Made by a program: the position numbers and the translations under genes. A stretch of DNA of 46,799 bases from Verrucomicrobiia bacterium (GTDB taxonomy: Bacteria; Verrucomicrobiota; Verrucomicrobiia; Limisphaerales; CAIMTB01). Position 1 is the stretch's first letter; every line of letters starts with the position of its first letter. Shown here one piece after another: positions 12,469 through 46,306 of the stretch. The stretch covers positions 1-46,799 of the forward strand of contig JAHCBA010000048.1 in the NCBI GenBank assembly GCA_019634625.1, written 5' to 3'. The notes under the pieces are model-generated. The model was not told the DNA's origin, ran no database searches, and saw nothing but the letters and a program-made list of their open reading frames with translations.

Positions 12469-13623
12469 ATGTTGGCACCCATGGTACCCAGTTCGCGCGA
12501 CAAGGTTCTGTTCACACCCGGCCCCTTGACCACCAGTCTGGCGGTCAAACAGGCCATGCTTCACGATGCCGGGTCCTGGCATTGGGAGTTCAATGCGCTG
12601 GTCAAGTCGATCCGTGACCGGCTCCTGGCTCTCGCCGGGCTCGATGCGGGCGAGGGATGGGAGTGCATCCTGCTCCAGGGCAGCGGCACCTTCGGCGTCG
12701 AGGCGGTGCTGGCCAGCGTGGTGCCGCCCCAGGGCAAGGTGCTGGTCCATGCCAATGGCGCCTATGGCGAACGGGCCATCAGGATGCTCGAGCATCACCG
12801 CACGCCGCATGTCGCCTACCGCACGCCCGAGGATGCCGCGCCCGATCCGGTGGAACTCGACCGCCTGCTGGCCGATGACCCCACCATCACCCACGTCGTC
12901 GCCATCCATTGCGAAACCACCACGGGCATCCTGAACCCGATCGAGGCCCTCGGGCCGGTGGTGCGGCGTCACCAACGGGTGTTCATCGTCGATGCGATGA
13001 GCAGCTTCGGGGCGTTGCCCATCGACTTCCGGGCGTGCGGCATCGACTACCTCATCTCCTCGCCGAACAAGTGCCTCGAGGGCGTCCCAGGGTTTTCGTT
13101 CGTGTTCGGGCGGCGGGCGGATTTCGCGGCCACGGCGGGTTGGGCGCGCTCCTTGAGCCTGGATCTGCTCGGGCAGCTCGAGGGCTTCGACAAGAACGGG
13201 CAGTTCCGGTACACGCCGCCGACCCATTCCATCCTGGCGCTCCACCAGGCGCTCCAGGAACTCGAGATGGAAGGGGGTCGCGAGGCGCGGTTCGATCGGT
13301 ACCAGGCGAATCATCGCACCCTGGTGGCGGGGATGACCGCGCTCGGATTTCGTCCCTACCTGCGCACCGTCGTGCAGAGCTGCATCATCACGTCGTTTGT
13401 CTTCCCGAAGGATCCCCGGTTCACCTTCGATGCCTTCTACCGGCGTCTCAGCGACGAGGGCCATATCATCTATCCGGGCAAGATCAGCCAGGCCGACACC
13501 TTCCGCATCGGGAGCATCGGCCGGATCTTCCCCTCGGATGTGTTGAATCTCGTCGCCGCTGTCCAGCGGGTCATCGACGCCATGCAGGTCCGGCCCGATG
13601 CGGGCGGGTCATCCGCGAGCTGA
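12469..13623 (+). CDS. phnW: 2-aminoethylphosphonate-pyruvate transaminase
   Basis: This 384-residue PLP enzyme transfers the amino group of 2-aminoethylphosphonate to pyruvate, giving phosphonoacetaldehyde and alanine. Family features include the N-terminal KVLFTPGPLTTS, the glycine-rich LLQGSGTFGVEA, the cofactor aspartate in FIVDAMSSFGALP (D175) and the Schiff-base lysine in SSPNKCLEGVPGF (K201). Length fits PhnW (about 360-370) with a short extra N-terminus. The start is uncertain: ATG at 12469 or 12481, neither with a good ribosome-binding site. PhnA and a class III PLP enzyme follow on the same strand, each after a repeat-rich gap of several hundred bases. They are one functional cluster but probably not a tight operon. 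Confidence 0.93.
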   Translation: MLAPMVPSSRDKVLFTPGPLTTSLAVKQAMLHDAGSWHWEFNALVKSIRDRLLALAGLDAGEGWECILLQGSGTFGVEAVLASVVPPQGKVLVHANGAYGERAIRMLEHHRTPHVAYRTPEDAAPDPVELDRLLADDPTITHVVAIHCETTTGILNPIEALGPVVRRHQRVFIVDAMSSFGALPIDFRACGIDYLISSPNKCLEGVPGFSFVFGRRADFAATAGWARSLSLDLLGQLEGFDKNGQFRYTPPTHSILALHQALQELEMEGGREARFDRYQANHRTLVAGMTALGFRPYLRTVVQSCIITSFVFPKDPRFTFDAFYRRLSDEGHIIYPGKISQADTFRIGSIGRIFPSDVLNLVAAVQRVIDAMQVRPDAGGSSAS

Positions 13624-13750
13624 CCTCCTGGCTGCAAGGCATGGATTGGCGTGCCTCCCCCCGAGCCGTTCGAACACGCTGAAGCGTGGACACCGAACCG
13701 GGCGGGGCTTCCGCGTCTGCCCTGCCGGCACAGAATCTCCGCCAGGCCGC

Positions 13751-13891
13751 CTTCGTGCTCGTGCTCGTGCTCTTGCTCGTGCTCGTGCTCTTGCTCTTGC
13801 TCGTACTCTTGCTCGTGCTCTTGCTCGTGCTCTTGCTCGTGCTCTTGCTCGTGCTCTTGCTCGTGCTCTTGCTCGCACTCGCACTCGGCCT
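13751..13891. repeat. Hexanucleotide microsatellite CTCGTG/CTCTTG
   Basis: About 140 bases of alternating 6-bp units CTCGTG and CTCTTG form a higher 12-bp period, with an occasional CTCGTA. The array is purely intergenic. Similar hexanucleotide arrays with different units (TCGTAN, TCGATT) occur at 15634, 15966 and 24586. Confidence 0.95.
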
Positions 13892-13970
13892 TTCCCGCTC
13901 CGCTTCTTTCAACACCCAGACAGAATCCCTCCCGCGCACCCGTCGTCCGGTCAATTCGAGGAACGAGGAC

Positions 13971-14001
13971 GAGTACCGCCCTTCGGGCTGAGTACGAGTA
14001 C
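13971..14001. repeat. Dispersed hairpin motif, copy 1
   Basis: This is a 31-bp motif of the form GAGTACC-GCCC-TTC-GGGC-TGAGTACGAGT with a short internal stem. A near-identical copy is at 15795-15823, and a shorter relative (GGGGGCTGAGCACGAGGAC) lies near 24765. Each copy lies next to a hexanucleotide array. Confidence 0.7.
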
Positions 14002-14125
14002 GATGACGGACAAATGGAATAATACGGAGTTGACCCCACTGCCCAAACCGTGAGGCAGGAACCAAGCTGCGCGGGGTCAGATTGGGCACGGTGCATCCCC
14101 AAGTTGTCGGTGAGGAGGCAGCAAA

Positions 14126-14200
14126 TCGGAGGGACGAGCTCCGCGAGTCCTCAATCGAACGCACCACACCATTGCGGCCTCGTGGAACTCGGCCCTCCGA
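14126..14200. repeat. BIME-like inverted pair of 22-bp repeats
   Basis: Two inverted copies of a 22-bp motif (14126-14147 and 14179-14200) flank about 31 bases that include ACCACACCATTGC. The first reads TCGGAGGGACGAGCTCCGCG. The second is its inverse with GGCCCTCCGA at the end. The same architecture, including the CACCAC/GCAATGG spacer motif, recurs at 15864-15929 and 22594-22714. Confidence 0.8.
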
Positions 14201-14308
14201 GGCGATGCTTCGCGAAGTTCGCGCCTCCACCCACTCCTCCGGGATGCACGGGATTGGCCAACCTCCGGACTTCCCCTGAAGACTCCGCACCGGCAGGCTT
14301 TTCCGCCC

Positions 14309-15571
14309 ATGTCCAAAGCCGTCACGTTCACCGTCCATCATCGCACCTACTCGCCTCCGGCCCGCCCGGTGGCGGTCGTCTGCCTCGACGGGTCGGCCGA
14401 CGAGTATCTCGACGCGGCCATTGCCCGCGGACGCATGCCCAACCTCGTCCGGATGACGGCATCGGGATACCGCGGCAAGGCCCGCGGGGCCATGCCCAGT
14501 TTCACCAACGTCAACAACACCTCGATCGTCACCGGGGTGCCGCCGGCCGTCCACGGGATCGGCGGGAACTTCTTCTACGAGGCGGACAGCGGGCGCGAGG
14601 TGATGATGAACTCGGCCTCGTTTCTCCGGGTCGAGACGATTTTTCCCGCGGCCCAGCGCGCGGGCCGGCGGGTCGCGGTGGTCACCGCCAAGGAGAAGCT
14701 GCGCGATATCTTCGCCCATGAGCTGATCGCGGCAGGCGGGATTGCCTTTTCCTCGGAGAAGGCCAATCAGGCCCGGATGGCGACCCATGGCATCGACGAG
14801 GTGGAAGCCCTGGCGGGACCGACGCCGGAGATCTACAGCGGGGAGGCGAGCCTGTACGTCCTGCGGGCCGGAGTGGCGCTGATCGAGCAGGACCGCGCGG
14901 ACTTCCTGTATCTGAGCACAACGGATTTCATGCAGCACAAGTTCCCGCCCGAGGCGCCCGAGGCCCTCGAGTTCTATGCCGGGATCGATGCGCTGCTGGG
15001 CCGGCTTCTCGACCTGGGCGTGGTGGTGGGCCTGACCGCCGACCATGGGATGAACGACAAGCGGAAGGCCGATGGTTCGCCGAATGTGATCTATCTCGAG
15101 ACCGCCCTGAACGACCGGTTCGGCCCCGGATTCCGCGTCATCCTGCCCATCACCGATCCGTACGTCGTGCATCACGGCGCCCTCGGCAGCTTTGCCCAGG
15201 TCCATTTGCCTCCGTCCGATGCGCGGATCGCCGTGCCCGAGGTGGCGACGTGGCTGCTGTCGCTGGTGGGAATCACCGAGGTGCATGACCGGGCGACGGG
15301 CGCGCGGTTGCTCGAACTGCCGATCGATCGGATGGGCGACATCGTGGTCTGCGCGGGGCGCGATGTCGTTCTGGGCCGGACGGTCGATTACCACGATCTG
15401 AAGGCGATCGAGGGCGGGCTTCGTTCGCACGGCGGACGGTACGAGGAAATGGTGCCGTTCATCCTGTCCGAGGCGCCTCGCCCCGAGTACCTCGCCCGGG
15501 CCCGCGCGGATGTCCGCAATTTCGACATCTTCGAGTTCACATGCAATGCGGGTGTGAAATCGGAGGGTTGA
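14309..15571 (+). CDS. phnA: Phosphonoacetate hydrolase
   Basis: This 420-residue alkaline-phosphatase-superfamily enzyme cleaves the C-P bond of phosphonoacetate to acetate and phosphate. Metal ligands and the nucleophile are visible: the first Asp in VAVVCLDGSADEYLD (D27), the catalytic Thr in NVNNTSIVTGVPP (T71), TTDFMQHKFPPE with Asp and His, LTADHGMNDK with the Asp-His pair, and the final His in RSHGGRYEE. Length matches the characterised PhnA family. It lies 685 bases after phnW and 532 before a class III PLP enzyme. No gene for phosphonoacetaldehyde dehydrogenase (PhnY), which normally links PhnW to PhnA, is present in this window. Confidence 0.94.
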   Translation: MSKAVTFTVHHRTYSPPARPVAVVCLDGSADEYLDAAIARGRMPNLVRMTASGYRGKARGAMPSFTNVNNTSIVTGVPPAVHGIGGNFFYEADSGREVMMNSASFLRVETIFPAAQRAGRRVAVVTAKEKLRDIFAHELIAAGGIAFSSEKANQARMATHGIDEVEALAGPTPEIYSGEASLYVLRAGVALIEQDRADFLYLSTTDFMQHKFPPEAPEALEFYAGIDALLGRLLDLGVVVGLTADHGMNDKRKADGSPNVIYLETALNDRFGPGFRVILPITDPYVVHHGALGSFAQVHLPPSDARIAVPEVATWLLSLVGITEVHDRATGARLLELPIDRMGDIVVCAGRDVVLGRTVDYHDLKAIEGGLRSHGGRYEEMVPFILSEAPRPEYLARARADVRNFDIFEFTCNAGVKSEG

Positions 15572-27777: not shown

Positions 27778-29412
27778 TTGGCGCTCCGACGTCGGTTCCG
27801 TTCCCGCCGGATTCACCGAGGTCCAGGCTGCCTTCGCCCCAAGTTCCTCCTCGGGCTCACGGCCACTCCCGAGCGCATGGACGGCGGCGATCTCCTTGCG
27901 CTTTGCCAGGAGAACCTCGTGTTCCGGTGTGATGCCTTCGACGGCATCGACCGCGGCCTGCTCTGCCCGTTCCAGTACTTCGGCGTTCCCGACGATGTTG
28001 ACTACGCCCAGATCCCGTGGCGCAACGCCCGTTTCGACGAGGAGGCCCTGACGCAGGCCGTCGCCACGCAGAAGTGGGCACAGAACGCACTCGAACAGTA
28101 CCGGAAGCGGGGCGGAAAACGGACCCTGGCGTTCTGCGTTTCCCTGCGACATGCCGACTTCATGGCGGACTTCTTCCGCGGCGCGGGAGTGCGGGCGGTC
28201 GCCGTGCATGCAGGTGCCGAAAGCGCACCCCGGGCCGCTTCGCTGGAACAACTGTCGGCGGGCGGCATCGACGTCATCTTCGCCGTGGACATGTTCAACG
28301 AAGGCGTCGATGTGCCCACCCTCGACACCGTGCTCATGCTGCGGCCCACCGAGTCCGGCGTGATCTGGCAGCAACAGTTCGGACGCGGCCTCCGCGTGGC
28401 GGAGGGCAAGTCCCACCTCCGGGTGATCGATTTCATCGGGAACCACCGCATCTTCCTGACCAAGATCCGCACCCTCCTGCGGCTCAATGCCGGGGATTAC
28501 GAAGTGGACCGGGCGCTGAACCTGCTCGCCGACGGTGCCTTCAACCTGCCGCCCGGCTGCGAGGTGACCTACGAGCTGAAGGCCATCGAGATCCTCAAGT
28601 CGCTGCTCCGCGCAAGGACGCCCGATGCCCTGCGGGCCTTCTATGAGGATTTTCGGGAACGGCACGGCATCCGCCCCAGCGCCACCGAGACCTTCCATGA
28701 GGGCTACCTCCCTGGCTCGGTCCGACCCCAATTCGGGTCGTGGTTCGGCTTCGTCGCCGCCCTGCAGTTCGAGGCGAGCTTCGTCAAGGTCGCCGTCCAT
28801 GCCCTGCGAAAGCCCGGCAACCAGGAGAACGTCCTCCCCGAAGTCCTGCGCCAATGGTTCGGCCCGGACGCCGGAATGCCCGGCACCCGACAGTTTGTCG
28901 CCTTCGAACAGACCGAAACCGGCTGGCGGATGGCCGCCGCGGCGGCTCCGGCACCGGTTGGTAAGCCTGAGCGTTGGCGTGAGTATGACCGCCCGGAGAT
29001 CCCCGAACTCTTCGGCCTCCAGTTCAACGCGGGATCCTGGAATCAGGGATTCGCCGTCAAGGACCGTGACGTCTTCCTCCTCGTGACCCTCGACAAGGAC
29101 GACCTCCAGGAGGGCCACAAGTACCGCGACCGCTTCCTGTCCCCCACGCTCTTCGAATGGCAGAGCCAGAATCGCACCCGACGGGACTCCGCCCATGGCG
29201 AACTGCTGCGCGATCACGCCAAGAAGGGCATTGCCGTCCACATCTTCGTCCGCCGGTCCAAGAAGCGATCCGGCCGACCGTCAGGGCTCACCTACTGCGG
29301 CGAGGTCCAGTTCGTTGATTGGGAAGGGGACGAACCTGTCACAATCCGATGGCGCATGGATCAATCGCTACCCGATCGCCTGAAGCAATCGTTCAAGGTC
29401 GGCGGGGTGTAG
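27778..29412 (+). pseudogene. SF2 helicase remnant lacking its N-terminal half (DUF3427 type)
   Basis: The 544-codon frame encodes the back half of a COG1061-type DEAD/DEAH-box helicase with a DUF3427 tail. Recognisable homology starts abruptly at motif III, KFLLGLTATPERMDGG. Helicase C motifs follow (KRTLAFCVSLRHADFM, VDMFNEGVDVPTLDTV, QQQFGRGLRV) and then a DUF3427-like C-terminus with GHKYRDRFLSPTLFEWQSQN. Walker A (motif I), motif II and the N-terminal nuclease-like domain of intact members are absent. The only in-frame start is a TTG at 27778. A good AAGGAGG site with ATG at 27765 is in another frame. It directly follows the histidine kinase stop, so this is probably the edge of an accessory island. 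A non-functional relic is most likely. Confidence 0.85.
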
Positions 29413-35022: not shown

Positions 35023-37278
35023 TCAGGCTTGCCCAAGCAGCCCAACCCACTCACCGAGAACCCGAAGCGAATCCTCTTCGGCCTGCGTGATGACGATCGG
35101 GGCGAAGTCCGGGTTCAGCGGACGCAGTTCGATCCGGACATGCTGAAGGTTCCCGTCCTCGTCGAATCGCTTTTCGCTCCAGTACCGCTTCACGGTCAGA
35201 CGCCCGACGGTTTCCGGGTCCACGGAGTCCCTTAAGGCAACCAACACGATCCGCCCCTGCCGTGTTCCGGCGAGCGCCTCGCCTGCGCGAAAGAGACAGA
35301 GCGAACCGTCGGGAATTTTTGGTTCCATCGAGTGTCCGACGACCCGAAGGGCGAACATGTCCTTCGAGGCCCGCATTCCCTCGACCCGGGCCCACGCCGA
35401 AGCAGCGCCGGGATCGGGCGCAGTGTGGTCGGGTCCAAAGGCACCGGCTGCAGCCGTAAGTTCGTAGAACGGAACCCAGAGAATGAATCGCTCGCCCACA
35501 GGCGGATTGCCCAGCAGGACTTGCCCCAAGGCATCCGGGGATGTCGTTTGTGGTTCAGGTGCTGACTTGTCCTCCGCGGCCCAACCGCCCACCACCGTGC
35601 GAAACCCGCGCGGTTCCCACCGTTCAACTCCGCGCTGGATGGCGGTGTGCTCGACGGACTCGGCTACGGCGCCAAACAGCCGCAATTCCCAGTCGCCACT
35701 CCGCAGAACTATCCGGCCAGCCAGACGCTCCGCCTCAAAGTCGAACCGCTCCCTGTGCACGCCCCGCATCCGGGACCAGTAGTCGATGATGCAGGATTGG
35801 CGTGAACTCAGGACAGAACGCGACGGTAACTGATCGCGTTTGTCCTGGTTGGCCGCTTTCGATGCCGGCAGGAGATTCCACAGGTCGTTGTTCCGCCAGA
35901 GCGCGAAAGGGATGGCGTGGTCCAACTCGAACCGGCCGCCCAGCGCGACCCCGGTCCAGACGCACACCTTGTCGGTTAAGTCCTCGTACAGACGGCGCGC
36001 AGCATGCACGTCGCGCTCCGCGAGGGGTACGGTGAGCAAGGCGTCGATCACCTGGCTCGGCTTGAGCAAGCCTTGCGAGATCTCAGTGGTCAGCTCAGCC
36101 CAGCGCAACACGGTCGCATCCGCGATCCAAGCCCCCATCAGCGACAACTCCCGCCACAAGTCAGCCGACATCTCCACACGCCCGCTCGCTGAGTCGTACC
36201 GGAAAGTCCCCGATCCGCCGCCTCCGGCGAAGTACACCGGGCCCGCCCGGATCGCATCCCGCACCCTCGACAGGGCCTGCTCGTGCACTTTGGCCGCTTC
36301 CTCGGAGAGACCGCGGCTGCGGTAATCGACGGTGAATCCGGCGAGGCCGCCGCGATTGCGATAGTGCTCCACCAAGCGGGCGAGCGGAGCCCGGAATTTC
36401 ATGGGCTTCGCGCATCCGGGTTTCTCGCCGCGCTTCTGGGGAATGAACTCCGGTGATTCGATCAGCGGCCAATAGTACTCGATCCACTTGTCCGCGATAA
36501 GCCGCAGCGGGACTGCCACCCGTCCGCCGGGGAGCCAAGTGGCCGAGTGATGGCTGGTGGTCGCCAGATCCGCCAAGGCCCGAACCAAGGCCGGCTTGTA
36601 CGTCGCGTCCTTCTTGTCGCGGTTGAGGATCGCCTCGATCGTTTCGAGGCTTCGCGAGCCCGGCCCTTCCAGAACGAACGCCTGCGTCGCCCAGGTCCGC
36701 TCCGTTCGGCCGAGGGTGTCCCCGGAATCCCAGCGATGTGTCCGCCGAAATCCCACCTTCTCGAAGAGGAACTGGAACTGTTCCGGCGGCACCTCATTGA
36801 ACAGCCGTCCGTCCGGGTCGCGATGCGTCTCGGCATCGACGGGAGGCCCCTGCAGCGGTGTCGAAATCAGCAGTCGTCCGCCGGGCCGGAGCACGCGGCG
36901 CAAGTTGAACAGCGTGTCGAACAGCCGCTCCGCCGGCATGTGCATCAGCACAGCCCAGCACAGGATGCCGTCAAAACTGGCGTTGGGGACCGTGCCCAGA
37001 TCCGGCAGCGAATCCCGTCGAAGCCGGCCCGCCAGGGCCGGGTACCGGCGCTTCGCCTGGGTCAACAGGTCCTCGCAGGCATCGATTCCCTCGGCCTCGA
37101 ACCCGGCGTCAACGAGCGCATGAAGATCGCGCCCGGACCCACAACCGACATCGAGAATCCGACCGGCCGTCCCGAAGATCTCATGAAAATGCCGAGCCGC
37201 TGCGCTTTCAGCCGCGGCATATCGCGCCGCCACCGTGGGAGCGTGTTCCGAGTAGAACTGGAGCGTTTTCCCGTCCAT
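35023..37278 (-). CDS. Fusion: SAM methyltransferase, HNH nuclease and S24 peptidase
   Basis: This 751-residue protein (ATG at 37278) joins three enzyme-like domains. Residues about 30-210 are a class I SAM-dependent methyltransferase with motif I RILDVGCGSGRDLHALVDAG and LRRVLRPGGRLLIST. Residues about 215-420 form a helical linker region (LIADKWIEYYWPLIE). An HNH-type nuclease core follows, CVWTGVALGGRFELDHAIPF with NDLWNLLPASKAANQDKRD (about 440-485). Residues about 590-750 are a LexA/S24-type domain with the nucleophile serine in LRVVGHSMEPKIPDGSLCLF (S650) and the lysine in GRLTVKRYWSEKR (K697). All catalytic positions appear intact. S24 domains usually cleave themselves on a damage signal, so a self-processing nuclease is imaginable but unproven. 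It lies in a defence-rich region, divergent from the DUF3883 gene. Confidence 0.85.
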   Translation of the reverse strand: MDGKTLQFYSEHAPTVAARYAAAESAAARHFHEIFGTAGRILDVGCGSGRDLHALVDAGFEAEGIDACEDLLTQAKRRYPALAGRLRRDSLPDLGTVPNASFDGILCWAVLMHMPAERLFDTLFNLRRVLRPGGRLLISTPLQGPPVDAETHRDPDGRLFNEVPPEQFQFLFEKVGFRRTHRWDSGDTLGRTERTWATQAFVLEGPGSRSLETIEAILNRDKKDATYKPALVRALADLATTSHHSATWLPGGRVAVPLRLIADKWIEYYWPLIESPEFIPQKRGEKPGCAKPMKFRAPLARLVEHYRNRGGLAGFTVDYRSRGLSEEAAKVHEQALSRVRDAIRAGPVYFAGGGGSGTFRYDSASGRVEMSADLWRELSLMGAWIADATVLRWAELTTEISQGLLKPSQVIDALLTVPLAERDVHAARRLYEDLTDKVCVWTGVALGGRFELDHAIPFALWRNNDLWNLLPASKAANQDKRDQLPSRSVLSSRQSCIIDYWSRMRGVHRERFDFEAERLAGRIVLRSGDWELRLFGAVAESVEHTAIQRGVERWEPRGFRTVVGGWAAEDKSAPEPQTTSPDALGQVLLGNPPVGERFILWVPFYELTAAAGAFGPDHTAPDPGAASAWARVEGMRASKDMFALRVVGHSMEPKIPDGSLCLFRAGEALAGTRQGRIVLVALRDSVDPETVGRLTVKRYWSEKRFDEDGNLQHVRIELRPLNPDFAPIVITQAEEDSLRVLGEWVGLLGQA

Positions 37279-37440
37279 TCCTCGCAGAGGTAGGCTAGGC
37301 GGCGACCCTCGCGGAAACCAGCGGCGTGTGAGCAGGGTCAACGTCTGCAATCCTCAGGGAGGCTTGTCATCGGAGATCTCCTTGGCTTGCATGTCCCGCA
37401 CCCCCCATGCGCGTAGGCGAACGGCACATTCGAACCTTCC

Positions 37441-38301
37441 ATGGCTGAAGACTGGTCACGCGAGGAGGTCGAAGCCGTGTTCGCCGACTATCTGGCGATG
37501 CTCGCCAGCGAACTCGGAGGCGAACCCTACAACAAGGCAGCCCACAACCGAGCCCTGCAGCGGGTGCTCGGTCGCCGGACGCACGGGTCCATCGAGCGAA
37601 AGCACCAGAACATCAGCGCCGTTTTGATCGACCTCGGTTTCCCGTACATCGAGGGGTACAAGCCGCTCGGGAACTACCAGGACCTGCTGCGATCCGTCAT
37701 TGAGGATCGATTGGATGGCGAACGCCGCCTTCAGGAAATCGTCGCAACCGCCGTTGTTGCGACCCCAACCGCCCCTCGGCTCCCCTCTGACCTCCTGACC
37801 ATCGAGGTGCCCGCCCCGGCTGGTGTCGAGGACAGCTACGCCTTCCGCGATCGTGCCCCTCGACGCCAACCCTCAGCAAAGAGGGACTATCTGGCGATCG
37901 AGGCCCGGAACGCCTCCCTCGGCTTGGAAGGGGAGCGCCTGGTGCTCCGCTTCGAGCACGAACGCCTCTGGCGGGCCGGCCAAAGGACCCTCGCTGAACG
38001 AATCGAGCACGTGTCCCAGACCCGGGGGGACGGGGTTGGCTACGACATTCTCTCTTACGAAACCGACGGCCGGGAGCGGTTTGTCGAGGTCAAGACCACG
38101 CGGTTCGGCGAGATGACACCATTCTTCGTCTCACGAAACGAAGTCCGCGCTTCGGGGGAGATCGGCGATCAGTACCGGCTCTGCCGGGTCTTCGCCTTCG
38201 CGCGCGAACCGCGGCTGTTTACCCTGGCTGGTCCTCTCTCCTATACTTGCAAGCTCGATCCGATCGCGTTCGTCGGAATGCCCAAATCGCGCCGCTCGTA
38301 G
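37441..38301 (+). CDS. DUF3883 domain protein, putative nuclease
   Basis: This 286-residue protein has two parts. The N-terminal 110 residues are helical (VFADYLAMLASELGGEPYNK, HQNISAVLIDLGFPYIEGYK), typical of the helical domain that precedes DUF3883. The C-terminal part is DUF3883, with GDGVGYDILSYETDGRERFV and EVKTTRFGEMTPFFVSRNEV, which preserves the D...ExK core of PD-(D/E)XK-like folds. Proteins of this kind are common in defence islands, often beside helicases. It is divergent from the methyltransferase-HNH-S24 gene (162 bases apart) and convergent with the nuclease that ends the Argonaute operon. Start ATG at 37441. Confidence 0.88.
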   Translation: MAEDWSREEVEAVFADYLAMLASELGGEPYNKAAHNRALQRVLGRRTHGSIERKHQNISAVLIDLGFPYIEGYKPLGNYQDLLRSVIEDRLDGERRLQEIVATAVVATPTAPRLPSDLLTIEVPAPAGVEDSYAFRDRAPRRQPSAKRDYLAIEARNASLGLEGERLVLRFEHERLWRAGQRTLAERIEHVSQTRGDGVGYDILSYETDGRERFVEVKTTRFGEMTPFFVSRNEVRASGEIGDQYRLCRVFAFAREPRLFTLAGPLSYTCKLDPIAFVGMPKSRRS

Positions 38302-38553: not shown

Positions 38554-39684
38554 TCACACCGTCTCCATCATGTGTCCAGGGCGGCTGATGACAATTGCGT
38601 CCACAACGCGGTCGAATTTCCGCATGCCCTCGATAATCAGAGCATGATCTTCTGAGTGGGCGGCGTTGTCCCATAGAAGGACGAGTAGGTGATCATAGCC
38701 GGTGGCCGTCGTGAAATAATTGGAGGCGTCCTGCGCGATCTCATTAACCGCATCCTTCAGTGCGCTCCTGGTACGAGCGAATTTGACCTCGATGAGCAGC
38801 CGTAGGGATGGTATCCCGAAATCTACCCGTGGCTGAATGGGTCCCACTTGGGGAGCATATTCCTCACGTCGCAGGTCAGGAAACACTGGGGCGAGCATCA
38901 CCCAAAGAAGGGCCTGAACGTGGTATTCGTTGTCGATCTGCCACTTGGCCAGTTGGCTCTTCGATGTCTTCGCTTTCGCCTCCCACGGCCATTGCTGAAG
39001 GGCCCGGGGCATAGCGCGCAGCAGTTCCGTAACGATTCCCACGGTCGCCTGGCCCGGCAGCACGACCGGCGACGAACGGCGGATCCAGCCGAGGGCTACA
39101 AGAAGCAATTGCGCGTGGAACGTATCGTTGGGAAGGTCGCCTCGCAGGAGGCACTGGAGTAGCGCGTTTCCCTCATCGTCGGTGCTGGTCACGATTCCGC
39201 GCGATGCCAAAGCAATCCGAAGCTCGGGCGCGCAAGGAGATGCTCCCCCACGCACGATGCGACCTCCTTCGGCAAGCCACGCAGGAGTCACGGCTTCGGC
39301 GCAACGCGCGAGGACTTGGTCGTGCCACGGCGCAAACCACCGACGCTCCCGTGCTGCGAGGCCAAGAACTATGTGCGCCAGTCCATCGGAGACAACGGGT
39401 GCTGGAACGCCGGCTCGATCGAGTGCTACTGCCGCGAGCCACTGAAGGCCGTCATCGAGACTCGACTTGTCCATCGCCCACCCAGCCACCTCCGCGAGAG
39501 AGGCTAGGGCCACGTGCTCGTATTGGCGCAGAGGGGGCTTGAGCGCATCCGCGAGACCTGCTGGCGCTGACCCGGCCCGCAGCCACGAAATGAACGCGGT
39601 CTCAAGTAGCGAGAGATCCCCAGCCTGAGCAGTGGCCACTAGTGTCGCCTCGGCTTCGCGAAGGAGAATCTTTGCCGCCGTCAC
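38554..39684 (-). CDS. PD-(D/E)XK nuclease, DpnII/MboI-like, last gene of the Argonaute operon
   Basis: This 376-residue protein starts at a GTG at 39684 whose last two bases begin the Argonaute stop (GTGA, 4-base overlap), with GAGGTGG eight bases upstream. About 250 residues of helical repeats, ending WEAKAKTSKSQLAKWQIDNE, precede a C-terminal nuclease domain. There VQALLWVMLAPVFPDLRREE leads to the catalytic core RVDFGIPSLRLLIEVKFAR (Asp about 287; Glu and Lys about 298-300). This resembles the REase DpnII/MboI-like domain. Since the adjacent Argonaute has lost its slicer residues, this protein is the obvious candidate for the cutting effector. That role is inferred from coupling and motifs. 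Confidence 0.88.
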   Translation of the reverse strand: MTAAKILLREAEATLVATAQAGDLSLLETAFISWLRAGSAPAGLADALKPPLRQYEHVALASLAEVAGWAMDKSSLDDGLQWLAAVALDRAGVPAPVVSDGLAHIVLGLAARERRWFAPWHDQVLARCAEAVTPAWLAEGGRIVRGGASPCAPELRIALASRGIVTSTDDEGNALLQCLLRGDLPNDTFHAQLLLVALGWIRRSSPVVLPGQATVGIVTELLRAMPRALQQWPWEAKAKTSKSQLAKWQIDNEYHVQALLWVMLAPVFPDLRREEYAPQVGPIQPRVDFGIPSLRLLIEVKFARTRSALKDAVNEIAQDASNYFTTATGYDHLLVLLWDNAAHSEDHALIIEGMRKFDRVVDAIVISRPGHMMETV

Positions 39685-41876
39685 AGGAACCACCTCGACG
39701 TGCCCGCGTCTCCCCGGAGGATGTCGGGATCCCAGCGCGACAGGCTTCCAAGCCGGCCGAGAAGATCCGCGATCAACTCGGCGTACAGGACTGTGATGGG
39801 TACAGAGGTCGGCGTGAAATTGCGCCACGACAGAGCCGCAAAGGCAAGGACCTGATCGCTCAGGTAACCGAGATCCGTGAACGTCGACCCCTCTTGGAGC
39901 TTAATGCAGATCGGGCGCGGGAAGCCGGCCCGATCGTTGCGGATCTCGTTGGGTCCGAGGACAGCGACAAGCGCCTCGTAGCGTCCGATATGGACCACAG
40001 CTCCTCGTGGCGGGATCTGTTGTTGCTCGCTCGGATCGAAGAGGAGGATGGGATGCTGCTCGGCAAGATGAAGGAACGAGAAATCGACCTTCAGGTCGGG
40101 CTCGGCGACACCCACCACCGCGCCTTTAAGCGCTTCGAGATGGTGCTTCCTGAGGTCCTTGAAACTGTGGAGCACGACGCGCACCGAATCGCCCGGCCGC
40201 CAGGCCATCTCAGCGCGTACTCGCTTGAACGCCGCGACAGCACTCTCAACGACTGCGCCCTCGTGCTCTTCGTACTTCACGATGCGCGACGTTTCGGTCA
40301 GGTAGTACCTGCCATCACCACTAAATGCAGTCGTAAGCCCAACAACGCGATCGCGATTTCCACAACGCGTGGTTCCAAGGCTGGCGCTGCCCAAGCCGAG
40401 GATCAGTTCGTGCACTCTGGTTTTAGTCTGCAGCAGCCAGGGCACACCGCCAAGCTTCGAGAAGATTTGAAGGCCGATGCCTCCGAGCGCCCATTGGCGC
40501 TGGCTCGTCGGCTTCTCCATCGTCTCCACGCGGAACTCCTGCACCGGAACGTTCCGCGCAAGGAACTTGGCCTTCGTGACAAGATACGGATTCTGGTCGC
40601 CGGGAGCGTCCTGGGTGTCGCTCGGGACCTGCACCAGCGCGAGTTGCCATTTTGTTCCTGCGTCAATCGCGGTCTGAAACGCCTTCTGGTAGTCGGAGGC
40701 CGAGCTGCTAGCGGCATCGAAAATCGTGAACGAGATCGCGCCGATCTTCCACGTCTGGACGAGTGGACGGTGAGAGCCCTCGCCGTCGCTGAGCGCCTTG
40801 AGGAACAACTCGACCTCGCGACGCCGCGAATTCTCGCAAAGTACACACGCGCGCACGCTGTGTTGTGCGCTCGAAGGCACGTAAACTGGACCCGACTTGA
40901 AGAGCCCGCGCGTGGAGTCGGCGACCTTGTTTCCGCCGACGATGTACTTCGGCAGTGAAGCTGTCGTCTGCCCCAGCTCGTGCGCTGTCACCCAGCCGGA
41001 AAGACGGGCCTTCACACCAGGCGCGATCTCGAAGCTGTCCTGGGAAAGGCGCTCCACGAACCGTGAGATGCGCTCCCACCGCTGGCTCCCCGTCGCGAGC
41101 AGGTTTCGCTCGTCCCACAGCTCCTGGTTAGCTTCGGCCCCGACATAGTGCGCAGCAAGGCGCTGAAGTGCAGCCGGCCCGAGGTCCAGCGTGATGGTCG
41201 ACGCCTCGTACTGCGCGCGGTCGCCGCGCCGGTCAGAGCCGAGATGCACTGTTGTCCCTTCGACCTGGATCACCTGGCCGACCATCGTGGGCCGTCCGTG
41301 TTTGGTGTCTGCAGGGTCGAGACTGAGCACGTAGAGGCCGCGCAGGTCGAAGTCGTCGGCGATAAGATCCGCGCAGGTCGCATCGCCGAGATCCGAGTGC
41401 GTGATCGCGTCGATCACGAGCGCTGGAGCCGGACCGGCTTTGCGATATACGGTTCGCGCTTCCATGCGGAAGCCACGTCGCACGTGAAGAGGGAACCGGC
41501 CCTGAGTCCGTCTTCCGAAAAGCGTGTTGGCAATGTCGTTCTTGGGCTCGAGCGAGACAACCGTCAGCGGCTTGCGACGGATCAGAGCGATCTTTGGCTT
41601 GGCGACGGACCGTTCGAAGCCGCGCTCGATGAGCAGATTGAGCAGCTTGCCGATCTTGTTGGCCGGCCGCGGTTCGAACTTCATGTCGAGCAGTGCGGCG
41701 CTGAGGTTGGTCCGCACCGCCTGGAGAGAATCGCCGCGACGCCGGAAGACGTAGTCCATCCCGTGCGCGTCCTCGAACGCCCGGTGGCGCTCCTTGTCGT
41801 AGGAGGCTAGCGTCCCGACGTCGATCATCGCGTCGTCGACATCGATGAGAATGAAGTTGGTCCTCAACGCCGACAA
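39681..41876 (-). CDS. Long prokaryotic Argonaute with inactive PIWI domain
   Basis: This 731-residue protein is a PIWI-domain prokaryotic Argonaute of long architecture. The N-terminal and PAZ-like half includes FDLRGLYVLSLDPADTKHGR (about 176-195). A MID-like segment has NPYLVTKAKFLARNVPVQEF (about 429-448). The PIWI domain starts at GIGLQIFSKLGGVPWLL and ends with PRPICIKLQEGSTFTDLGYL, FAALSWRNFTPTSVPITVLY and the C-terminal TSRWFL. The slicer tetrad is lost: the first catalytic strand reads LILGLGSASLG (about 491-501) with Gly for Asp, and the third reads VVLHSFKDLR with no Asp-Gly. It should bind guide and target without cutting. It starts at a TTG preceded by AAGGAGG and overlaps the glycohydrolase gene by 13 bases and the nuclease gene by 4. 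Confidence 0.87.
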   Translation of the reverse strand: MSALRTNFILIDVDDAMIDVGTLASYDKERHRAFEDAHGMDYVFRRRGDSLQAVRTNLSAALLDMKFEPRPANKIGKLLNLLIERGFERSVAKPKIALIRRKPLTVVSLEPKNDIANTLFGRRTQGRFPLHVRRGFRMEARTVYRKAGPAPALVIDAITHSDLGDATCADLIADDFDLRGLYVLSLDPADTKHGRPTMVGQVIQVEGTTVHLGSDRRGDRAQYEASTITLDLGPAALQRLAAHYVGAEANQELWDERNLLATGSQRWERISRFVERLSQDSFEIAPGVKARLSGWVTAHELGQTTASLPKYIVGGNKVADSTRGLFKSGPVYVPSSAQHSVRACVLCENSRRREVELFLKALSDGEGSHRPLVQTWKIGAISFTIFDAASSSASDYQKAFQTAIDAGTKWQLALVQVPSDTQDAPGDQNPYLVTKAKFLARNVPVQEFRVETMEKPTSQRQWALGGIGLQIFSKLGGVPWLLQTKTRVHELILGLGSASLGTTRCGNRDRVVGLTTAFSGDGRYYLTETSRIVKYEEHEGAVVESAVAAFKRVRAEMAWRPGDSVRVVLHSFKDLRKHHLEALKGAVVGVAEPDLKVDFSFLHLAEQHPILLFDPSEQQQIPPRGAVVHIGRYEALVAVLGPNEIRNDRAGFPRPICIKLQEGSTFTDLGYLSDQVLAFAALSWRNFTPTSVPITVLYAELIADLLGRLGSLSRWDPDILRGDAGTSRWFL

Positions 41877-43684
41877 GTCGCCTCCTTCGAGAAGCGCTTC
41901 TCGATTACCTCGACGATGTTTCCGTCGGGATCGACGCAGTGAAACGAGTGCTCACCCCAGGGGAGTTCCGCGATCGGCTGAACAGGCCCAGCTCCGAGCT
42001 CGGTCACACGCGTATGTGCGGCGCGGATATCGCTGACGTGAATTTCAATGCGATTCCTTCGATTCGAAGGCTCCAGGGTTACCAACCCGCCCGAGAGATC
42101 GAGAGCCGTCTGTGCGTCGACGAGTGAGAGGGCGCCAAACTGCACGAAGCGATTGCTCTTCCGCGTGTGCGCGAGCCCTAGCCGCTCGTAGAAGGCAGCC
42201 GACGCAGCGAAGTTTGACACCGTGAGCTTCACGCCTCCCGCACGAACCTCGAGCTTCTCCTCGGTGCAGGGCGGCGGCTCCTGCGCGGGCGGTTCCGAAG
42301 GTCGCCGCGACGCTGCAACTCGCGTCATCTGCTCTTTCGACTTCCTGCCGATCTTCGTGACGTAGAGCGTCTGCCCGTCCGAAGTCGCAAGCTGCCACCC
42401 GGCGGCGGTGACCGTCGGCGCGGATGGCGTGAGCCTGTATAGATCCACGACACGCGCTTGGCGCGTGCCACCGAAGTCGAAGTCGTCTCGATGCCCCTCC
42501 AAGACGTTTTCCATGATGGTCTCAAGCACCTTCGACGTCACGACTGGGTGGTCGACAATCGCCCCCTCCGGCTTTAATCGCGCGGCGACCTTGTTCGCGA
42601 TATGTCGGAGATAATGGCTATCCTGCACCGCTCCCCATTCAGGCGGCAGCCAGTCCGATCCCACGAGAGCCCCTACGAGCCCACCGGTCATCGCAGCCAC
42701 GGTGTCGGTGTCCGAGCCGAGAGCGAACGCTGCTCTCAGCACTCCTTGCACCGGCAGCGCGGCATGGCGGGCGGCAAGGTAGATCGCCGCTGCAGCACTG
42801 ACCGTGCCTGAGCCCTTCTCTCGACTGAACGCTCCCATTCGATCAAGGACGGCATCGTCGTCCGAGAGCACGCCTTCCTCCAATCCCTTGATTCCGAGAT
42901 GGAGCAGTTGGCGCATTTCCTCGACGACGTCGTTCCATAGTTTCTCGTAGTCGCGAAGGGAGCTAGTCGCCGCCTCAAGCCAACCGCTTTTTGTGGCCGA
43001 TGCCATGGGTGGCGACCCCCAGGCTGACGAAGTGTCGAGCAGCACCGTGAGGAGCTCGCCGAACCCGACGGTGTGCTGTGCGCGGAGGAGCCACCAAGCT
43101 GCGTACGCGTACGCAGCAGCGCCAACAAGCGCGCGAGGATGACCGTGCGTCGCCGCTCCGTCGACCACGACATCCTTGAGCAACGGGGTCGGATCATCAG
43201 CGTCGGCGTGAAAGACAGCATGGGGGACAATGCGCATGGCCACGCCGTTGCCGCCTGCCTCGAAGTACCGGGCTACGGCTTCAGAGTCTGGTTGCTTCCA
43301 CGGGGCGACACCCCGGAGCCAGCAATTTGCAGCGCGTTTCGTTGCGCCGCCTCCCCCCCGCTCGTAAAGCGTCCAGAGAGGAAGTTCGTTCCTCGTGAAG
43401 AACAACCACCAGGACGAGCCGGCCGTAAGCCGGGAGCGAGCGATCGCCAATGTGAGCTGCGTGTCGTCGCTGTACTCTCCAGCGCGGATGACCTCGGTAT
43501 GCGGGTAGAACCGTCCGCCCCCTCGACGCTCCCAGTCTCGGAACGAAGCCGTGGGCTGAATGTGGTGCTTTCGGCTGATGAACTCCTGCGGCCAGCCTAG
43601 TGCATCGCCTACCGCGAGCGCGGTGAAGGCTGCTTCGACCCGCGTTCGTGCCACTGCCGGCCGCTGCGTGTTGTGGCTGCTCAT
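41864..43684 (-). CDS. ADP-ribosylglycohydrolase fused to a VOC/glyoxalase-like domain
   Basis: This is a 606-residue fusion. Residues about 12-390 are an ADP-ribosylglycohydrolase (DraG/ARH) with both magnesium-site motifs: GDALGWPQEF (about 26-35), GEYSDDTQL (Asp 73, Asp 74) and ALGSDTDTVAAMTGGLVGAL (Asp 325, Asp 327). It should remove ADP-ribose from a modified target. Residues about 400-450 form a small unassigned segment (RQARVVDLYRL, LYVTKIGRKSK), followed by a proline-rich linker. Residues about 484-596 are a VOC/glyoxalase-type fold (AFYERLGLAHTRKSNRFVQF, HSFHCVDPDGNIVEVIEKR). Its ATG overlaps the stop of the DarT-like gene (ATGA). It is the probable antidote to the DarT-like enzyme, in place of the macrodomain protein DarG. 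The VOC domain's role is unknown. Confidence 0.9.
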   Translation of the reverse strand: MSSHNTQRPAVARTRVEAAFTALAVGDALGWPQEFISRKHHIQPTASFRDWERRGGGRFYPHTEVIRAGEYSDDTQLTLAIARSRLTAGSSWWLFFTRNELPLWTLYERGGGGATKRAANCWLRGVAPWKQPDSEAVARYFEAGGNGVAMRIVPHAVFHADADDPTPLLKDVVVDGAATHGHPRALVGAAAYAYAAWWLLRAQHTVGFGELLTVLLDTSSAWGSPPMASATKSGWLEAATSSLRDYEKLWNDVVEEMRQLLHLGIKGLEEGVLSDDDAVLDRMGAFSREKGSGTVSAAAAIYLAARHAALPVQGVLRAAFALGSDTDTVAAMTGGLVGALVGSDWLPPEWGAVQDSHYLRHIANKVAARLKPEGAIVDHPVVTSKVLETIMENVLEGHRDDFDFGGTRQARVVDLYRLTPSAPTVTAAGWQLATSDGQTLYVTKIGRKSKEQMTRVAASRRPSEPPAQEPPPCTEEKLEVRAGGVKLTVSNFAASAAFYERLGLAHTRKSNRFVQFGALSLVDAQTALDLSGGLVTLEPSNRRNRIEIHVSDIRAAHTRVTELGAGPVQPIAELPWGEHSFHCVDPDGNIVEVIEKRFSKEATCRR

Positions 43685-44382
43685 CGCTGACCTCTAAGCT
43701 TGAACACCGTCTCTGACGGCGCTGTGCCGCTCATGAGCCGCGCGCTGAGCGAGTGCGGGTTAAAGAAGTCCGGTGCGATGACGATACGCGGAATGTCAGC
43801 GTGAAGTTGCTCAAGGCGTGCGTGCTCACGCTTGGCCTGGGCCTCGGAGGCAACGGCAATGCCAAGGATGTCCTCGCCCGCCACGCGATCGGGGATGAGC
43901 ACTTCCGCTTGCTGGTCAGTCGTCAACCATGCTGGGTGCTCCGCCGTGCGAGTGAAGGTTTTCCCGTATGCCCCAATCACCGACTGCGCGAACATCGAAT
44001 CGAAGGCACGCTCACCTTCCGCGACGCCGCTGCCATAGTTGGCTGCTGCATTGCGCGCGGAGAACCTGGTGCCGGCTTTCCACAAAGCGTCGGGCCTAAG
44101 CAAAAGCACCACCCAGTCCGCGAAGAGGCTTTCGTTCCCACGCGCTTTTCGAAAGTACCAGGCGTTTGGGTACTGCACCGAGCAGCACACGTGGTCGGGG
44201 AATCCGTCAAGACGCCGCAAGTCGGTTGCGTTGAAGACAGCTTTCTCGTCCTTTCGTAGACGCACAGCGGACAGAACTCCGTTCGGGTCAGTGGCGATGT
44301 GCACGAGGTTGCGTGATGGCGTGAAGTGGCAGAGGCGGGAGATCCCACGCATGGTCACCTTCGCTCGGATAGATGCGATCAT
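43681..44382 (-). CDS. DarT-like DNA ADP-ribosyltransferase (DUF4433)
   Basis: This 233-residue protein belongs to the DUF4433/DarT family, NAD-dependent enzymes that attach ADP-ribose to DNA bases; characterised DarT2 acts on thymidine in single-stranded DNA. Visible features are the N-terminal NAD-binding histidine in ISRLCHFTPSRNL (H19), VCCSVQYPNAWYFRKARGNE, VVLLLRPDALW, and the catalytic glutamate in TTDQQAEVLIPDRV (E160) within the ADP-ribosylating turn-turn region. The ATG overlaps the helicase stop by 4 bases with an AAAGGAG site upstream, and its stop overlaps the glycohydrolase start. A toxin or phage-sensing effector role, reversed by the neighbouring glycohydrolase, is inferred. 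Confidence 0.9.
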   Translation of the reverse strand: MIASIRAKVTMRGISRLCHFTPSRNLVHIATDPNGVLSAVRLRKDEKAVFNATDLRRLDGFPDHVCCSVQYPNAWYFRKARGNESLFADWVVLLLRPDALWKAGTRFSARNAAANYGSGVAEGERAFDSMFAQSVIGAYGKTFTRTAEHPAWLTTDQQAEVLIPDRVAGEDILGIAVASEAQAKREHARLEQLHADIPRIVIAPDFFNPHSLSARLMSGTAPSETVFKLRGQR

Positions 44383-45794
44383 CGCTGGCTCCTTTGCAGG
44401 AGGCCGTCGCTGAGCGGCAAGAGGGGCGTCGGGTCGCCCGTGTGTGTGATTATCAGATTGGACTTCGCTCGCGTGACCGCGACATAGAGCAACTTCGTGT
44501 TCCGAGCCGCCGCGTCATCGCAACCGAACGCCACAACGTCCGGAGGGTGTGGTAACCGCGAACTCGACGCAAAGGGGACGAGCACCGAATCGAACTCCAG
44601 CCCCTTCGCCGAATGGTAGGTCCCGTAGAACAGCTTGGGGCCTCGCGACCAGACGTTGAGCTCTCGATGGAGCCGCGTTGCGTGGACCGGAAGGAGCTGC
44701 GGGAGGTTCTGCTCGATTTCTCGATCTCGAAAGAGCACGGCGACAGTGCCCGTCTCGGCGAGCTTTTGTGCGCGCGTCGCGACAAACTGCATCTCCTCGG
44801 TTTCCACTTTGAAGCCCACGAGAGCAGGCGGCGGCCCATCAGCAGTCGGGGACTTTGGCTCGACAAGGTCGGCAAGGCCGCGGTAGTGGGGAGACCTCGC
44901 GATCGCGAGAGCGAGCTGCGCGATCTGCCTCGAGTTGCGATAGTTCTCTTCGAACTTCCAGACCTTCGGGGCGTTGAGTCCTGCGCTACGCCAAGAAATC
45001 TTGTGGCCGTAGATCTGTTGGGCCATGTCGCCGAAGAACGTCAAGCTGCCGCCCGCTGGGATCGCAGCGGCGAGCGACTGCAGCATCACCGGTGAGAAGT
45101 CCTGTCCCTCATCGATGATGATGTGTGTGTAGCAGCGCTCGTTGTCGTCGTTGCGGAACTCTGTGAGGACGGTCTGAGCCAGGTCGTCCCAGTCGTAAGG
45201 CTTGCCGCTGGCGTTCCTCAGGGCCCGGTAACTTTCGTAGGCGACGAAGACTTGTGCTCGCTCGTTCTGGGGAACACGAGAGCCTGTGCGTCCATCCTGC
45301 TCGGCATCGAAGTAGTCGTCGGCTGATCGAATGCCGTTTTGCGAGAGCCATTGGAACTCCTCCACGAGGAAATCGATGGGCCGACCGAAGACTTGGGTCG
45401 TCACCCCAGTTCGCCTCAGGCCGTCGATCGCACGCTGGGCATAAGCAGCCGCGAGGTCTGGGCTCGCGATGGCGTTGCGCTCCATCTTGCCGCGACTCGC
45501 GAGATAGCCGCGCGCGAAGTGATGGTAGTTGCGAACGTGGACTTGACCGAGCCCCGCGCCCAGCGATTGCAGGTACGCGACGAGACACTTGTTGAACGTG
45601 ACCAAGAGAGTGCGGCCACCATGGTCCGTGTTCGGGTTCGCGAGGTACGCCGCTCGGTGGATGGCCAGCGTGGTCTTCCCGCTACCCGCGGTGCCGAGGA
45701 CGACGGTGTGGCCCGAGGCAGGAAGGGCCAGAACCTCTTTCTGTCGTCCAACGGGGGTTGGAAGCATCGCGGACATCTCAGCTTCCCGGCGCAT
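44379..45794 (-). CDS. UvrD/Rep-like superfamily 1 helicase, first gene of the Argonaute operon
   Basis: This 471-residue SF1A helicase is complete for the motor motifs. Walker A is VVLGTAGSGKTTLAIHRA (about 34-42). Motif II is IIIDEGQDFSPVMLQ (about 225-233), motif III TFFGDMAQQIYGHK, motif IV FEENYRNSRQIA, motif V YHSAKGLEFDSVLVPF, and motif VI LLYVAVTRAKSNLIITHTGD. It is shorter than UvrD (about 720), lacking the large accessory insertions. The start is the ATG at 45794 or the ATG at 45776; neither has a clear ribosome-binding site. Its stop overlaps the DarT-like start. Unwinding to supply single strands for Argonaute or DarT is plausible but not shown. Confidence 0.9.
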   Translation of the reverse strand: MRREAEMSAMLPTPVGRQKEVLALPASGHTVVLGTAGSGKTTLAIHRAAYLANPNTDHGGRTLLVTFNKCLVAYLQSLGAGLGQVHVRNYHHFARGYLASRGKMERNAIASPDLAAAYAQRAIDGLRRTGVTTQVFGRPIDFLVEEFQWLSQNGIRSADDYFDAEQDGRTGSRVPQNERAQVFVAYESYRALRNASGKPYDWDDLAQTVLTEFRNDDNERCYTHIIIDEGQDFSPVMLQSLAAAIPAGGSLTFFGDMAQQIYGHKISWRSAGLNAPKVWKFEENYRNSRQIAQLALAIARSPHYRGLADLVEPKSPTADGPPPALVGFKVETEEMQFVATRAQKLAETGTVAVLFRDREIEQNLPQLLPVHATRLHRELNVWSRGPKLFYGTYHSAKGLEFDSVLVPFASSSRLPHPPDVVAFGCDDAAARNTKLLYVAVTRAKSNLIITHTGDPTPLLPLSDGLLQRSQR

Positions 45795-46063: not shown

Positions 46064-46291
46064 TCATCGATCCTCTCTGTTGGCAGGCTCGTTTTGGCGG
46101 ACGTCAGCACTGCCGCCCCTTACCCAGTTGTCAACTTCAGAGAGCTTGAATTTCCAGAGGCGACCAATCCGATGCGACGGCAGGCTCCGAGTCTCGATCC
46201 ACCGGTAGACCGAATCCTTGGCAACGCCCAAGTGCTTTGCCACAACCTCAACGGAGCTCCAAGGTTCGGTGGTGTGGACCGGAAGGTTCAT
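46064..46291 (-). CDS. Small helix-turn-helix protein (excisionase/MerR-like)
   Basis: This 75-residue DNA-binding protein starts at the ATG at 46291 (an upstream TTG at 46306 is possible). The sequence PWSSVEVVAKHLGVAKDSVY followed by RWIETRSLPSHRIGRLWKFK is the classic HTH_17/excisionase-type winged helix. It lies 269 bases upstream of the helicase gene in the same direction. It may regulate the operon or be the excisionase of the mobile island. Neither can be told from sequence alone. Confidence 0.85.
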   Translation of the reverse strand: MNLPVHTTEPWSSVEVVAKHLGVAKDSVYRWIETRSLPSHRIGRLWKFKLSEVDNWVRGGSADVRQNEPANREDR

Positions 46292-46306
46292 AGGATCGAG
46301 ACCCAA

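Follow-up and report, generated by a model that had tools for sequence, protein, structure and literature searches.

On the minus strand of the 46,799-nucleotide contig JAHCBA010000048.1 of a Verrucomicrobiia bacterium (assembly GCA_019634625.1; the whole of this stretch is called the window here, and its positions are used throughout), five overlapping genes between 38554 and 45794 form an operon that joins a DarT-type ADP-ribosyltransferase and an ADP-ribosylglycohydrolase (ARH) with a prokaryotic Argonaute and a nuclease. In order of transcription, these genes encode a UvrD-like SF1 helicase (44379-45794; 471 aa from the ATG at 45794, or 465 aa from an alternative ATG at 45776), DarT, a DarT1-like, predicted DNA ADP-ribosyltransferase (43681-44382; 233 aa), an ARH with a VOC domain, ARH-VOC (41864-43684; 606 aa), a long-B Argonaute (39681-41876; 731 aa, with a TTG start) and a bAgaN-like helical PD-(D/E)XK nuclease (38554-39684; 376 aa when counted from its GTG start, within a surrounding 424-aa open reading frame that begins further upstream). 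The helicase and DarT genes overlap by ATGA, as do the DarT and ARH-VOC genes, the TTG start of the Argonaute gene lies 13 bases within the 3' end of the ARH-VOC gene and is preceded by AAGGAGG, and the Argonaute and nuclease genes overlap by GTGA. Coordinates and start codons agree with the five overlapping genes and the junctions that an initial annotation, made from the letters of the window, had described.

Profile searches upheld the family assignments of that annotation for all five proteins, the PIWI and DUF4433 calls included. Pfam found the N and C domains of UvrD in the helicase, PF14487 in DarT (68 bits), PF03747 (143 bits) together with VOC in the ARH protein and the DpnII-MboI family PF18742 in the nuclease (136 bits), and the Argonaute barely passed the Pfam Piwi cut-off (29.3 bits, with the cut-off at 28.9). 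PADLOC called the Argonaute as pAgo_II with 570 bits and the nuclease as Aga_Helical-REase with 284 bits. As none of the five proteins gave an NCBIfam match at the curated cut-off, they are not covered by named NCBIfam families. A helix-turn-helix gene at 46064-46306 was considered as a further member of the system and dropped, having given a single weak match (E 0.95) in other loci.

The helicase carries a Walker A motif (GTAGSGKT) together with DEGQD, GDMAQ, HSAKG and YVAVTR, and the nuclease has the catalytic motifs RVD (286) and EVK (299). In DarT the motifs HFT (19-21) and QAE (158-160) were found, with E160 aligned with E152 of E. coli C7 DarT1; since the protein is closer to DarT1, the guanine type, than to DarT2 in both sequence and fold (DarT2 structures score lower), it is predicted to act on guanine and not on thymine. 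The ARH/DraG domain (residues ~13-371; 42572-43648, minus strand, as for the two domains that follow) has its GDALG, DDT (73-75) and DTDT (325-328) motifs intact; the ARH/DraG hydrolases are marked by their fold together with DDT and D-x-D-T, the metal-binding motifs. Behind it lie a small beta-rich middle domain seen in a structure model (residues ~384-458; 42311-42535), in which D436-G437-Q438 is invariant, and a glyoxalase/bleomycin-resistance-like VOC domain (residues ~480-597; 41894-42247). Four Argonaute residues, Y431, K435, Q446 and K474, presumably the guide 5'-end pocket, are invariant across 30 aligned sequences, and the strand that we assume to hold the first catalytic Asp in active Argonautes reads ILGLGS. 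The catalytic activity of the Argonaute has likely been lost, and long-B Argonautes are described as deactivated in the available text of PMC10620215. Elsewhere, a Piwi match from Haloplanus was short (~436 residues) and one from Hymenobacter was a SIR2-linked Piwi protein.

In profile comparisons the Argonaute matched EcAgo of 23wq from end to end (E 8e-232) and structure 5awh, which we take to be RsAgo, at E 6e-136, and residues 208-374 of the nuclease, towards its C-terminus, matched EcbAgaN at E 2.4e-29. These matches bore out the proposed pairing of a separate nuclease with a long Argonaute whose class is described as inactive, and by homology to EcAgo and EcbAgaN the two proteins are a BPAN-like pair: as in BPAN, a full-length long-B Argonaute is followed directly downstream by a bAgaN nuclease in which the PD-(D/E)XK residues are present. 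According to the available text of PMC10620215, EcAgo uses RNA guides, recognises single-stranded DNA (ssDNA) and activates EcbAgaN for the degradation of double-stranded DNA; EcBPAN is triggered by a plasmid and then degrades DNA unspecifically. The BPAN, BPAS and BPAM operons are, however, described there as simple, with two or three genes, whereas the operon of the window, like that of a second genome (L002) treated below, has five overlapping genes, three of which precede the Argonaute; it is therefore not a plain BPAN operon. The words ADP-ribosyl, DarT, DUF4433, helicase and UvrD are all absent from the main text of that paper.

The other three genes belong to a widespread module. Species genomes were scanned with a DarT alignment, which found 56 loci, after a scan of genome contigs with a single DarT sequence had given no relative. 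At 51 of the 56 loci helicase, DarT and ARH share a strand and keep this order, counting L012, in which the helicase is split over two frames, and L043, in which DarT is split likewise. Of the remaining five, three lack just the helicase and in two DarT stands alone; the incomplete triplets of L035, L044 and L056 are on contigs shorter than 5.4 kb, an explanation that does not apply to L055 and L057. The loci come from Proteobacteria, Myxococcota, Cyanobacteria, Actinobacteria, Firmicutes, Bacteroidetes, Planctomycetes and other phyla. The initial annotation had the Argonaute recruiting both nuclease and helicase, which is half right at most: the nuclease belongs with the Argonaute as a BPAN-like pair, and the helicase goes with DarT and ARH.

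DarT1 is described as modifying guanine in ssDNA (available text of PMC11543638 and PMC11125620), and the window transferase is of the DarT1 type, as in DarTG1 (DarT1-NADAR, PMC11543638). The operon differs from DarTG1 in that its hydrolase is an ARH with a VOC domain and in the helicase gene that precedes DarT at those 51 loci, and Pfam, scanned with matches up to E 0.01 admitted, gave no NADAR in any of the five. With DarTG2 (DarT2-DarG, PMC5179494) it shares the DarT fold and the position of the catalytic glutamate, but a macrodomain DarG is missing from the operon, as Pfam matched no macrodomain in its genes. ADP-ribosyltransferase-ARH toxin/immunity pairs (PDB 6dre, 8za7) differ in that the transferase here is a DarT, with helicase, Argonaute and nuclease added. 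The helicase-DarT-ARH module is widespread and apparently undescribed: among the papers listed in the literature searches none was on DarT with ARH and UvrD, although the module may be mentioned in the 2012 survey of de Souza and Aravind or in a chapter of 2015.

A recurrent add-on module 3' of ARH was also considered and is unsupported, since in seven downstream open reading frames scanned only a mannosyltransferase-type pair repeats (L007 and L008, both Latescibacterota), alongside a 2OG oxygenase (L011), a resolvase (L004), an Mrr protein (L022) and two of no family (L005, L039). The Mrr restriction endonuclease of L022, an Armatimonadetes metagenome-assembled genome (MAG), lies at 3584-4489, 102 bases 3' of ARH, and is either a chance neighbour or a further add-on nuclease. 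In Caballeronia glebae (L031) a second UvrD-like gene (12977-14401; 398 bits) stands just 3' of the helicase-DarT-ARH module.

The five-gene order of the window withstood a search for it in other genomes, as all five genes recur in a Myxococcota MAG (L002) in the same order and with the same overlaps, including the 13-base TTG start and GTGA. Identity to the window proteins was 77% for UvrD, 68% for DarT, 73% for ARH-VOC, 67% for the Argonaute and 69% for the nuclease, and such even values across five proteins are what joint inheritance as a unit would give. L002 apparently belongs to another phylum than the window genome, judging by the numbering of the genomes given for the two phylum samples (387 and 377), which does not overlap. 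Close Argonautes, defined by an identity of 60% or more across 80% or more of the query, numbered 33 with the window's own included and the fragments P0277 and P0278 excluded. Among 377 genomes of the phylum of L002 the Argonaute search gave four matches, in the L002 genome (67%), in G600 (28%), as a short piece in G709 and as ~30 N-terminal residues in G476, and the DarT search gave two, in the L002 genome and in G476. In G476 (L093 4425-4889), DarT and ARH-VOC are followed by an open reading frame that matches the Argonaute for its first ~26 residues only, a stub that we read as a probable remnant, and no helicase or nuclease match was found on this 17-kb contig. A search at the level of the order (183 genomes) yielded neither a DarT nor a further close Argonaute (G839 34%, G768 29%, G803 a short piece).

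The sole physical link seen between the two modules is that between ARH and Argonaute, which are joined in single polypeptides in P0246 and P0250, two proteins that share 78% identity. In both fusion proteins the Argonaute begins at its own residue 3 straight after ARH residue 483-492, so that the VOC domain is missing and the middle domain is kept. In each of two Sorangium strains the contigs that carry DarT, ARH-VOC and Argonaute are of one and the same length (13.3 Mb in So ce128, 12.5 Mb in So ce1024), adjacency not having been seen.

The operon was apparently acquired horizontally from outside, as its composition deviates and no other close Argonaute occurs in its own phylum (387 genomes, with four distant ones at 24-29%). 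Its tetranucleotide distance from the host genome was 0.358, above all of 34 chunks from 17 contigs, which averaged 0.168 and reached 0.251 at most, and positions 1-30000 of the window looked native at 0.126-0.162. Distant Argonautes were found in 12 of 72,556 plasmid records, which also gave 24 distant DarTs, all of both kinds below 60% identity; viral contigs had no Argonaute or DarT relative, so a phage-borne origin gained no support from them. Adjoining the operon, a NOV_C/DUF3883 protein is encoded at 37441-38301 on the plus strand (PADLOC candidate PDC-S36, 339 bits), and at 35023-37350 on the minus strand lies the gene of a 775-aa protein with an unusual combination of methyltransferase, HNH and S24 peptidase domains; together with the operon these neighbours look like a defence island. 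A 544-aa open reading frame with Helicase_C and DUF3427 (27778-29412, plus strand) is possibly a further defence gene.

Since a genome of an apparently different phylum shares this order, the five genes may form one defence against invading DNA, and we tentatively read them, at somewhat below an even chance, as a single abortive-infection system in which guided recognition of invader ssDNA would set off nuclease and DarT alike. This reading builds on the observed gene order, overlaps, families, catalytic motifs, recurrence and fusions, from which we infer all activities and a signal from Argonaute to ARH. The helicase would open invading or replicating DNA, and the Argonaute, carrying small RNA guides as EcAgo does, would bind matching ssDNA and in its target-bound state switch on collateral cutting of DNA by the nuclease, on the model of EcBPAN. 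On the same ssDNA DarT would put ADP-ribose on guanines and so block replication, the ARH keeping DarT harmless until the Argonaute, in contact with it, changed its state. As Argonaute target and DarT substrate would both be ssDNA, strands made by the helicase would feed both arms, which would be the simplest reason for this combination of genes. The fusions make the contact between Argonaute and ARH a likely control point, and that DarT is released upon target binding is our guess at the favoured direction of control. A more specific form, in which an RNA-guided, nuclease-dead Argonaute flips the ARH and frees DarT for guanine ADP-ribosylation as the helicase opens and the nuclease destroys the DNA, we regard as rather unlikely when taken as a whole.

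Several observations weigh against a single system, and some of them suit a different explanation, that the transcript carries two defence modules which each act on their own and which the operon merely co-expresses and co-transfers, which we hold to be possible if doubtful. An Argonaute was present in the fetched stretch of one of the 56 DarT loci, a locus that belongs to the 51 triplets, and distant Argonautes with a nuclease and with no DarT in the stretch fetched were found on plasmids L067, L068 and L069 and in genome L099, so that neither module needs the other. Genomes L070, L071 and L100 have an Argonaute with no recognisable nuclease or DarT in the stretch seen. Fusion or equal contig size tied 12 of the 33 close Argonautes to DarT or ARH and left 21 untied, including six of the 13 on contigs of at least 20 kb; equal contig size is a proxy for linkage here, the protein lists give each cluster's longest contig only and, of at least 120 DarT and at least 120 ARH relatives, 120 each were compared, so that Argonaute links and absences are both uncertain.

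A tree of 80 ARH sequences (65 of the 120 listed matches, the two fusions, L002 and 12 other triplet loci), made by a quick method and with long-branch warnings, placed 10 of 11 Argonaute-linked ARH sequences and both fusions in one clade of 43 (SH-aLRT 100). On the opposing side, 28 members of this clade carry no known label, three are on long contigs with no listed Argonaute, and the linked sequence P0173 falls outside it; the linked sequences cluster weakly, as the fewest label changes among labelled sequences came to five and 28 of 500 label shuffles were as low. Residues 1-45 of the P0260 Argonaute are a VOC-like tail (CVDRDGHLAEVIEKGP), and its 398,790-base contig equals in size that of the complete ARH-VOC of P0173, which is of another clade, as if this Argonaute had carried along part of a different ARH-VOC gene; a move of the Argonaute part by itself would suit independent modules. 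That explanation does not account for the two ARH-Argonaute fusion proteins, nor for the overlapping starts that were retained despite divergence to 67-77% identity. From these comparisons we conclude that the five-gene set is a recurring composite, kept over long divergence, and not a fixed unit.

The ARH-release step of the single-system reading meets further objections. The ARH-Argonaute fusions could instead bring the hydrolase to the target, the opposite of release, and other ARHs failed on such linkages: ARH-like enzymes did not remove guanosine-linked ADP-ribose from RNA (available text of PMC11833690), nor did ARH3 act on DarT-modified DNA (available text of PMC9967889). For this reason reversal of the window DarT by its ARH is unproven.

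In a third explanation, which we find improbable, DarT and ARH guard the Argonaute arm, so that an invader which destroyed or inhibited the Argonaute or the nuclease would deprive the ARH of its partner and free DarT as a second line. Layering of toxin-antitoxin pairs is known in other systems and a fusion of ARH to Argonaute would make losing one the same as losing the other, both of which suit guarding; 55 of the 56 DarT loci, however, have no Argonaute seen that they might guard. It is more improbable still that DarT and ARH modify a protein, for example turning the helicase or the Argonaute on and off in the way that nitrogenase reductase is controlled by DraT and DraG; sequence and fold clearly relate the transferase to DarT1, and DarT enzymes modify bases of ssDNA.

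Both halves of the operon are of known kinds or close to them, and it is their union that appears to be new, as none of the papers listed in the literature searches joins DarT with an Argonaute. In the available text of a 2025 paper (PMC11833690) macrodomain and NADAR proteins are the only antitoxins named for DarT; if the module works as supposed, helicase-DarT-ARH would be a third DarT class, with 51 loci in many phyla and an ARH as its antitoxin. Argonaute control of the transferase, if true, would be the first guide-directed ADP-ribosylation of DNA bases. A single system, if that reading is right, would join nucleic-acid-guided recognition with covalent marking of DNA bases, strategies not found united in the literature searched, and the ARH-Argonaute fusions give a direct and testable handle on the control of a toxin by an Argonaute.

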